From Bacillota bacterium (GTDB lineage: Bacteria > Bacillota > Bacilli > Alicyclobacillales > SLC66), in NCBI GenBank assembly GCA_021793015.1, contig JAJYTO010000010.1, positions 1 to 35,227 of the forward strand: DNA of 35,227 nt, read 5' to 3'. The translations under genes and the position numbers were made by a program. Every line of letters begins with the position of its first letter. Position 1 is the stretch's first letter. The notes under the pieces were generated by a model. It saw nothing but the letters and a program-made list of their open reading frames with translations, ran no database searches and had not been told where the DNA came from. Shown piece by piece: positions 11,888 through 15,164 of this stretch.

Positions 11888-11911
11888 GGCCGGGTCAGCA
11901 AAGACCCGGCC
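11888..11911. terminator. Terminator between citA and the disulfide oxidoreductase gene
   Basis: GGCCGGGTC (11888-11896) and GACCCGGCC (11903-11911) form a perfect 9-bp stem with a 6-base loop. On the minus strand it is followed by AGTTTTGTTTTG, so it most likely ends the minus-strand rhodanese-oxidoreductase transcript; it may also stop citA readthrough. Imperfect copies of CGGGTCGGCAAAACA lie just to the left. Confidence 0.7.
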
Positions 11912-11931: not shown

Positions 11932-12591
11932 CTACTTGCTCGCGCCGACGGCGGCGACGACTTTCTCCAGCAACATGTGTTCAGGGGCCGCTCCTTCAAG
12001 CGAATAGTCATCGGTCTGGTTGAGCACCGTTTTTGGCACTCCGTACACGTTGAACCGGTTGGCCCACTCCGAAAACTCCGTCGCCTCCACCATGTTGCCC
12101 ACGACATGAGACGACTCAAAGGCAAATTGATGCGCAAGCCGCACCGCGGCTGGACAATACGGTCAGGTGGGTGTGACAAAAACGGACAGTTCTATGGCTT
12201 TGTCCATAGCCGCCAAAGCCGCTTTCGTATCCGGACGCAATCCCGAATCACCGCCCGAAACCATGAGAATGTCTTCGAGCAGCGTGGCGAATTCATACCC
12301 GCTCGGCGCCCCGTAAAAACGAATTCCATAGTCTTCCCGACTGTCATCGGTCAATGCGATGACTGGCGTTTTCTCGACACCAGCCTTTTTTGCCTGCGCC
12401 TCATCCGCGTATACATTGTACGTCTCCAGAGTCAGCAGATCCGACAATCCGCAAAGTTCCTGAAGCAGCATTTTGATTTCGGGGCAAGATGCGCAGTTGA
12501 GCGACGACTCGTAAAACTGAACCACAACGGGGTGGACCAATTCTGTGAAGCGGTCCCGGATTGCCGTTCGGTTCTTTTCTGAAATCAGCAT
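11932..12591 (-). CDS. Two-domain protein disulfide oxidoreductase (PDO/glutaredoxin-like) with in-frame UGA: candidate selenoprotein
   Basis: Read through one TGA (12163-12165) the frame gives 219 residues and matches archaeal-type protein disulfide oxidoreductases over the full length: two thioredoxin folds, each with a CxxC. The first site is NCASCPEIKMLL (about residue 33). The second should read VTPTCPYCPAAVRLAH; here the first cysteine codon is TGA, giving VTPT-U-PYCP. After it the conserved VGNMVEATEFSEWANRFNV and GVPKTVL (cis-proline) regions are intact and end at a normal TAG. ATG 12591 has GGGAGA seven bases upstream. The gene lies 20 bases after the rhodanese gene. The best reading is a selenocysteine at the redox-active position; the alternative is a recent nonsense mutation. 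Annotation tools would call a 142-residue truncated protein. Confidence 0.8.
12137..12165 (-). promoter_or_regulatory. Candidate bacterial SECIS element with the UGA codon
   Basis: On the minus strand the UGA (12165-12163) is followed after 11 bases by AGCCGC (12151-12146), the loop GGU (12145-12143) and GCGGCU (12142-12137): a perfect 6-bp stem with a loop that begins with G. The apical loop starts 17 bases after the UGA. As I recall the published bacterial SECIS model, it asks for a stem of four or more pairs, a loop of 3-14 bases with a G in the first two, and 16-37 bases from UGA to loop; all are met. The stem lies in coding sequence, as bacterial SECIS elements do. Confidence 0.6.
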
Positions 12592-12610: not shown

Positions 12611-12916
12611 TTATTCGACGTTGCCATCCCATGCGGACATGCCGCCCAGCAGGTTGTAGACCTTTGCATACCCCACGCTTCCTAACATCTGGCAAGCCGT
12701 GCTGCTGCGTCCGCCGCTTGCGCAGACGATGACACTCTCCACATGGGGGTCGATCTCCTTGTATCGGGCTGGCAATTCGCCAAGGGGGATCAATTTGGCC
12801 CCCGGAATATGGCCAGACCGAAATTCACCTGGTTGGCGCACATCAATAATCTGCAACGATTGCTGAGATTTCATTCTTTCCTTGACATCGACAGACATCC
12901 ACTGTGAAATACCCAC
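12611..12916 (-). CDS. Single-domain rhodanese-like sulfurtransferase
   Basis: 101 residues, one rhodanese domain: IIDVRQPGEFRSGHIPGA near the N-terminus, the catalytic cysteine in VCASGGRSS (about residue 64), and LLGGMSAWDG at the end. Such proteins carry a persulfide on the active cysteine and pass sulfane sulfur between partners in the cytoplasm. GTG 12916 has GGGAGTG about six bases upstream; ATG 12898 is a possible alternative. It is the first gene of a two-gene operon with the disulfide oxidoreductase and lies behind a CsoR/CstR-like operator, which fits a sulfide or persulfide response. Confidence 0.9.
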   Translation of the reverse strand: MGISQWMSVDVKERMKSQQSLQIIDVRQPGEFRSGHIPGAKLIPLGELPARYKEIDPHVESVIVCASGGRSSTACQMLGSVGYAKVYNLLGGMSAWDGNVE

Positions 12917-13402
12917 TTCGTCACTCCCATTTTACAATAAAATTGTCCCAAAAGGTCAAGTCGCCCGCAATCATCGCCGCCGGAACGATCCCTCACAGCC
13001 GCCTTGTGTCGCAAGGCAGCGCAGACATGAATTATTTATATACCCTGCCGGGTATATAGTCAAGTAGAGCGACACCCATATTTTTTCTCCGGACCCTCTC
13101 CAGGTCGTGTTTCTGACCGGGAAGCGGCCCGCGGCAACTCGCGATGGTACACGACGGCCAGTGCGGCTGTTTGCGGCTTGCGACGGCTTGCGACGGCTTG
13201 CGACGGCCTATGATTGACCACCTGCGTCCGCCCTGCAATTCTGCCATCTTGTTCTGTATTGTGGATTTGTGTTCCGCAATTCATAACACTCTGCTACAAT
13301 GTACATTAGATGCAGGCCATTGCCGCCGCTTTCTTGAGGAGGAAGAAGCAGCATCGCAATAACCTGTGCTTATGTCATCCAAATATGGTATAATCGTATT
13401 GG
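12917..13402. other. Intergenic region between rhodanese promoter and the IS607-like remnant
   Basis: Besides the operator and promoter above, it holds three exact tandem copies of GGCTTGCGAC at 13175-13204, and AT-richer DNA with a consensus -10 box TATAAT (13389-13394) for the HTH gene that follows. I see no convincing gene here. Confidence 0.6.
13035..13063 (-). promoter_or_regulatory. Rhodanese-PDO promoter with CsoR/CstR-type palindromic operator in the spacer
   Basis: On the minus strand TTGACT (13063-13058) and TATAAA (13040-13035) are 17 bases apart, a near-consensus promoter. The perfect palindrome TATATACCC-N4-GGGTATATA (13037-13058) fills the spacer. ATACCC-N4-GGGTAT is the type of site bound by CsoR-family repressors, including the persulfide sensor CstR. 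A second weaker promoter-like pair (TTGACC then TGTAAA, 17 apart) lies closer to the gene near 12930-12965. The leader of about 110 bases holds a 9-bp hairpin (CTGCCTTG / CAAGGCGG, about 13003-13025). Confidence 0.75.
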
Positions 13403-13588: not shown

Positions 13589-13676
13589 GAAGTGTCTGTT
13601 GTCCTGGCGGAGGGAAAAAGCTCGTTGAAGTCGTTCGATCCACATGACAAGACCCCGTGACGGGAGTGGGATCGGA

Positions 13677-15164
13677 ATGAAAACGACGTTTCAAGGCGTA
13701 TTGCTTGAAGTTGGCGGAGAGATCGCCCAAGGCTTGGACCGCCTGATGCGGAAATACGGATTCATGGTGCGCTACGCCTTTAAGCGGTTATTGGAGTCAG
13801 GCACAAAAGTGGGCGAATTGGAACGCATTCTGGCCGCGGAAACCGGATTGCCGCTTCGTTACGCAAAAGACGCCGTGGCCGAAGCCAAGCAACTGATCAT
13901 CGGCCAAAAGGTCCTCGTCAAGGAGCATTGGCAACTGTGGCAACGACGCGAGAAAAAGACGGCGGCAAGGATACACAAGATCGCGAGACAGGATCCAACC
14001 TCACGCAAGTTGCCGGGACTCCGAAGCAAACTGGAGAAGCAGCAACGCAAGGCGGCGTTTTACCAACAACATGCAGAGCAAAGTACGTTTCCTCCGGTGA
14101 TTTTCGGAAGTCGTGAACTGTATCTTTCGCAGTTCAAAGAGGGTGTCAATCAGGCAGCGTGGCGACAAGAGTGGGATGACGCCAGAAACGGCCGCTTGGC
14201 TGCAAGAGGAGATCGTACAAAGAAAGGAAACCCACTCCTTCGGATTCACGAACAAGACGGCGCGTGGCGGCTGGAGATTTCGCTGGATCATGGTGAAGTA
14301 CACGGCAAAAGCATTCGATACGACAAACTGACGGTTCCCCTGTATGTGCCGCGGAAAGTGTCGAAGACGACGGGGGCCATTAACGGGCGGGATTACGTGG
14401 CGCTATTGCACCAGGCGATCGAACGGGGTGATCCGTACCAGGTGGAAATCCTGCGCAAGCGCGGTGTTTACCACGTTCACGTCACGGTCGAGGAAATGCC
14501 CGCCAAGCTGGTGACGTATCCGGTCAACGGATGGGTCGGGATGGATACGAACCCGACACTCTTAGCTCTGTGCCATGTTCGAGCCGATGGAAACCCGCAA
14601 GCATTTCAGTGCTATCGAGAAGGACAACTGTACGATGCGCGAAGTCAGCGCCGCGATTGGTTGACCGGGAATCTGGCTCGGCAAGTCGTCGGGTACGCGA
14701 AGAAACGCGGCGCCGGACTGGTCATGGAAGATCTGAGATTCGTAAAGGATCAGGAAGTGAGCACGAAGTTTCGCCGGATCACTCATCAGTTTGTGTATCG
14801 CAAGGTATTGGTCGCGGTGGAACGCGAAGCTAAGCGGGAAGGCGTGGAGGTTCGGAAAGTGCATCCCGCGTACACGTCGGTGATTGGCCGGTTGAAATAC
14901 CAGCCACAATACGGCATCAGCGTGCACGAGTCGGCGGCGTTGGTGATTGCAAGGCGCGGCGGGTTAAAGATTCGGCGGGAAAACGTCCCAAAACCAATCA
15001 AGGATTGGCTGGTTGCCAAGCAAACGTTCAATGAGGCGGCGTACCGAAAAAGGGATTGGGGTATTTGGAATCAAGCAAAGAAGCTGATTGAAAAAACCTT
15101 GCAGGGGAAAGGAGGTAGCCTGGTTTCGTGGTTGGATCAACGCAAGGGACTGCTTCAAGGGTAA
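13677..15164 (+). CDS. tnpB: Divergent TnpB-like protein without zinc finger (IS607-associated type)
   Basis: 495 residues from ATG 13677 (GGGAGTGGG just upstream; ATG 13644 is in frame). The N-terminal half is helical and basic. The RuvC core has [15 protein letters not shown] with the first aspartate and GLVMEDLRF with the glutamate. The expected zinc ribbon cysteines after HPAYTS are absent, and where the third acid normally sits in a D-x-N-A-A motif the sequence is [14 protein letters not shown], with His at the Asp position. The protein may be a catalytically altered branch of TnpB, or use the neighbouring Glu. It follows the HTH gene after 88 bases. Its 3' flank is a long structured non-coding stretch, as expected for a guide RNA. 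Confidence 0.8.

Follow-up and report, generated by a model that had tools for sequence, protein, structure and literature searches.

The apparent stop codon inside a protein disulfide oxidoreductase (PDO) gene, found in the 35,227-nucleotide stretch of DNA analyzed here (the window), is almost certainly read as selenocysteine (Sec). On the basis of sequence, it is very probable that the product is both a selenoprotein and a member of a thiol-disulfide redox class. Sec-PDO occurs widely across this order of Bacilli, to which Alicyclobacillus belongs.

The PDO gene and its in-frame TGA codon

The gene and the two elements that bear on its decoding are the following:

11932..12591, minus strand: predicted Sec-containing PDO of 219 aa (TIGR02187 match, start shared with homologues)
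12163..12165, minus strand: predicted Sec codon, a TGA that opens the C-terminal CPYC motif (TGA at the equal codon in 35 distinct genes)
12137..12151, minus strand: predicted bacterial SECIS hairpin AGCCGC-GGU-GCGGCU (rules of the model satisfied, third positions frozen)

Translation of the minus-strand frame (12591-11932) gave 219 codons with a single internal stop and a terminal TAG. This agrees with the preliminary description, which had placed the only interruption on the codon for the first of the two Cys in the C-terminal CPYC: the TGA is located at 12165-12163 and is flanked by VFVTPT and PYCP. The start of the protein (MLISEKNR) agrees with that of the homologues. When the TGA is read as Sec, the protein matches TIGR02187, a model named PDO_seleno_TRX in NCBIfam, with 257.5 bits over residues 5-213 (cut-off 185). 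It contains two thioredoxin domains with the motifs CASC in the N-terminal domain and UPYC, where Sec replaces the first Cys, in the C-terminal domain. The closest solved structures were 1j08 and 1a8l, both of which are PDOs, and AhpF structures were also among the matches. The alignment to the solved PDOs covers the full length of the two thioredoxin domains, therefore the fold is beyond doubt. As judged by its family match (TIGR02187), the protein is predicted to belong to the disulfide reductase/oxidase class.

A TGA at the identical codon was found, in translated loci, in 35 distinct homologous genes, a recurrence far beyond chance, and homologues with Cys at this position exist too. The preliminary description had considered a recent nonsense mutation or a sequencing error (TGC or TGT to TGA), which would make the gene a pseudogene. 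In favour of such an event, the assembly behind the window is a draft in 321 contigs, and Cys homologues occur; however, the same-codon TGA is shared by independent assemblies, which refutes this explanation. The 35 genes come from many genomes, one of them a closed chromosome; the remaining frame is conserved, the hairpin behind the TGA is under synonymous-site constraint, and selA co-occurs with the TGA form. A mutation or an error can thus be excluded for practical purposes. The codon could also be a true UGA stop, so that the product would be a single-domain thioredoxin-like protein of 142 aa and the downstream frame would be translated separately or remain untranslated. The 142-aa N-terminal domain by itself is an intact ORF, but the C-terminal domain gives a strong family match and its protein sequence is conserved across all Sec genes. 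Furthermore, no in-frame start is found close behind the TGA, and closely related paralogues show Cys at its position, which makes a true stop highly improbable. Gene callers that take the TGA as a stop cut the PDO at residue 142, therefore half of the protein and the Sec active site would be missing from annotations, a loss that touches a group with cultivable Alicyclobacillus.

SECIS hairpin, selenocysteine machinery and distribution

The SECIS-like stem noticed in the preliminary description is present exactly at 12137-12151 and fits the published model. The hairpin has a 6-bp stem (AGCCGC/GCGGCT) and a GGT loop that starts 17 nt after the UGA, and its energy is -8.7 kcal/mol. It satisfies every rule of the bacterial SECIS model: a loop of 3-9 nt, a stem of 4-16 bp, a G among the first two nucleotides of the loop, a distance of 16-37 nt from the UGA and a minimum free energy of at most -7.5 (PMC13188914). 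These published rules were applied instead of an Rfam family, whose search in the PDO region gave no SECIS match. In the main group, the hairpin codons GCC GCG GTG CGG are invariant in 19/19 Sec genes, and their four third positions are the only sites with zero diversity among 39 fourfold sites (mean over the 39, 0.57), while comparable fourfold sites vary freely in the Cys genes. A model hairpin of -7.5 kcal/mol or lower was found in 29 of the 35 Sec genes vs 2 of the 53 Cys genes (p = 1.1e-13 in the energy comparison). The Sec hairpins show at least six different stem sequences, such as CCGGGCG/CGCCUGG, CCGCGCG/CGCGUGG and GGCUGC/GCAGCC, and at locus L046 the hairpin is shifted six bases downstream. 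Comparison of these sequences indicates that the hairpin structure is retained despite the sequence change.

The search for selA, selB, selD and tRNA-Sec proposed in the preliminary description found all of them encoded in the source genome (3.82 Mb, 321 contigs, 91.9% complete). It contains a tRNA-Sec with the anticodon tca (UCA; 60.4 bits), SelA (502.8 bits), SelB (380.9 bits for both pieces together) and two SelD genes, one of which follows selA on contig C201. The two SelD share only 45% identity, and in both the catalytic GU(G/A)CK motif (GUGCK and GUACK) contains an in-frame TGA, located at positions 1531-1533 of locus L018 (contig C201) and 1528-1530 of locus L019 (contig C30). Both paralogues appear to be selenoproteins, and the pair may come from mixing within the draft assembly. 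A search for formate dehydrogenase gave no match above the cut-off and no TGA. In another genome (G051), a gene encoding a single-domain thioredoxin (L084:100-405, minus strand) shows a TGA at the first motif Cys (ADW-U-PYC), about 2 kb from a Sec-PDO, and its product is a probable Sec thioredoxin. For the PDO of the window, UGA would in all likelihood be decoded by the genome's own SelA, SelB, SelD and tRNA-Sec, directed by the downstream SECIS. The machinery in the genome, the TGA in relatives and the SECIS behind the codon all bear out the Sec reading that had been proposed.

A PDO with one internal TGA was found in 21 of the 59 genomes of the order. The carriers include the isolate Alicyclobacillus tolerans BL-1 (L025) and the closed chromosome of A. 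mengziensis S30H14 (L026), and wherever a translated locus shows the conserved motif, its TGA invariably falls on the same codon. Members with a single TGA were also found beyond the order, in the class and in the phylum; a few phylum-level hits (L124, L127, L128 and L131) fell outside the motif pattern on which the codon assignment rests. Full or split selA was found in 20/21 genomes with the TGA form vs 3/13 Cys-only genomes of the order (Fisher p = 2e-5), and the sole TGA-form genome without a full selA, G045, is just 60% complete. Sec and Cys paralogues are found together in five genomes of the order (G018, G020, G039, G040 and G041) and in one of the class (G059), which offer a natural setting to ask why selenium was retained. 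A phylogenetic tree of 88 PDO sequences, built with the Sec column masked, places the PDO of the window in a clade of six sequences, all of them Sec (SH-aLRT 96). Since the tree shows at least six changes between Sec and Cys labels, three of which are forced by well-supported branches, Sec and Cys have been swapped several times.

Rhodanese operon, operator-like palindrome and proposed role

Four further elements were found next to the PDO gene:

12611..12916, minus strand: single-domain rhodanese (PF00581, 74.8 bits), 19 nt upstream of the PDO
11888..11911, minus strand: intrinsic terminator-like stem-loop past the PDO stop codon (9-pair stem and T-rich tail)
13035..13063, minus strand: promoter-like TTGACT-17 nt-TATAAA, identified by eye, whose spacer overlaps the operator-like palindrome
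13040..13055, no strand assigned: palindromic operator-like ATACCC-N4-GGGTAT, CsoR/CstR-family-like (it occurs once in the window, against an expectation of 0)

The rhodanese and the PDO are probably encoded in one operon. The nearest relative (L078) shows a rhodanese with 95% identity adjoining a Sec PDO, and 14 of the 20 Sec loci examined have a same-strand gene with a rhodanese domain no more than about 650 nt away. Genes encoding a TauE-type sulfite exporter, a CsoR-family repressor, an MBL-rhodanese fusion and a CoA-disulfide reductase are recurrent near PDO genes. Relatives show a similar promoter layout, e.g. TTGACA...TATAAT in L088; a stricter scan for the sigma-70 consensus gave no call at 13035..13063. 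Beside the operon, the window contains a 506-aa ORF (13644-15164, plus strand) that by eye resembles an IS605-type TnpB/transposase and has no Pfam match at 1e-5.

The operator-like palindrome is located upstream of the rhodanese-PDO operon, inside the promoter-like spacer. Both Sec and Cys genes can carry the motif ATACCY-N4-RGGTAT upstream: 36 of the 88 PDO genes have it, vs 0.01 expected by shuffling, and among the Sec genes 13/35 show it. Its strict form, ATACCC-N(2-6)-GGGTAT, occurs just twice across the genome, once at the rhodanese-PDO operon and once where two rhodaneses lie on one side and a gene for a BshB-like deacetylase on the other. At this second locus (L134, contig C198), two copies of ATACC(C/T)-N4-GGGTAT (1501-1516 and 1599-1614) lie between the rhodanese pair and the divergent gene of the BshB-like (bacillithiol) deacetylase, and the regulator of the PDO operon probably also acts at these palindromes. 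The CCC/GGG runs of the PDO motif, of three bases, are shorter than those reported in most CsoR-RcnR sites, which have four or more.

The source genome contains one CsoR-family gene (PF02583; L133 1285-1752, contig C178), which is downstream of TauE and rhodanese genes. CsoR has a metal-binding His that the CstR type lacks. The encoded protein, the sole member of the family in the genome, shows two Cys (KACKD and GENMERC) and an Asn in place of this His, and is predicted to be CstR-like. CstR proteins reportedly repress rhodaneses and sulfite exporters and sense reactive sulfur (PMC10318464).

The rhodanese neighbour and the operator motif point to a specific and testable role in reactive-sulfur handling. 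In the mechanism that we propose, the bicistronic rhodanese-PDO operon would be repressed by the CstR-like repressor of the CsoR family and de-repressed by reactive sulfur. The rhodanese would shift sulfane sulfur, and the PDO would reduce the resulting protein and small-molecule persulfides or disulfides. The selenolate of Sec would be the nucleophile that attacks the disulfides or persulfides, and the Sec intermediate would be resolved by the C-terminal Cys of UPYC, three residues on, perhaps with the help of the N-terminal CASC. Sec-PDO could then be recycled with electrons from a thioredoxin reductase, of which the source genome has one clear representative.

Gene context and operator motif make a persulfide role of Sec-PDO a tentative but serious proposal, and, with the same reserve, the enzyme could be the terminal persulfide (sulfane-sulfur) reductase of the CstR-like regulon. 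If so, Sec would give an edge in attacking the protein and low-molecular-weight persulfides passed on by the rhodanese, its operon partner, and a physiological role would be available for a selenoprotein family that was predicted in 2004 and is, as far as we found, uncharacterized. Some Sec loci have no rhodanese or operator motif, and Sec-PDO might instead be a general protein-folding or antioxidant enzyme, such as a peroxiredoxin reductant like the AhpF N-terminal domain, to which rhodanese and operator are linked incidentally. Archaeal PDOs are regarded as disulfide-shuffling enzymes, and the N-terminal domain of AhpF is a relative of the PDO family, in line with the AhpF structures matched, all of which would suit a general function. 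However, the co-location of a rhodanese-domain gene at most of the Sec loci examined, the strong enrichment of the operator motif and the position of its other genomic site, adjoining two rhodaneses and the BshB-like gene, argue against an incidental link, and we consider a general enzyme plausible but somewhat less likely.

Comparison with known systems

The Sec form of TIGR02187 is already known, and the new elements are its spread in the order, the predicted co-operon with a rhodanese and the CsoR/CstR-like operator. The preliminary description knew of no Sec form of the two-domain PDO in Bacilli. This holds for the Alicyclobacillus-type Bacilli, for which the open-access literature gave no description and no link to a sulfur-responsive regulon, but the Sec form of the family had been catalogued before: it is listed with UxxC and ABB15282.1 in Table 1 of PMC13188914, which cites Kryukov & Gladyshev 2004, and was reported in Carboxydothermus hydrogenoformans and Symbiobacterium thermophilum (PMC1794560, 2006). 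The catalogued protein, a Grx-like homolog of the AhpF N-terminal domain, shares with the present one the family model and the UxxC motif with Sec for the first Cys. They differ in that the genomes named for it are those of Carboxydothermus and Symbiobacterium, whereas the present gene comes from the order of Bacilli to which Alicyclobacillus belongs. In the papers searched, no SECIS comparison, operon or regulator was found for the TIGR02187 family, and no description of a Sec-PDO as CstR target gene.

The solved archaeal and bacterial PDOs (1j08, 1a8l; 2ayt/2ywm, 2hls) have, like Sec-PDO, two thioredoxin domains and the C-terminal CPYC motif, but show Cys at the first position of this motif (1j08 alignment), where the present gene has Sec. 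Sec thioredoxin and Sec glutaredoxin share UxxC in a thioredoxin fold, but they are single-domain proteins of other families. Finally, the present system resembles the CstR persulfide regulons (PMC10318464) in its CsoR-family repressor without the metal-binding His, whose gene lies next to TauE and rhodanese genes, and in the palindrome at the promoter; it differs from them in the operator, for which ATACCC-N4-GGGTAT is the candidate site.
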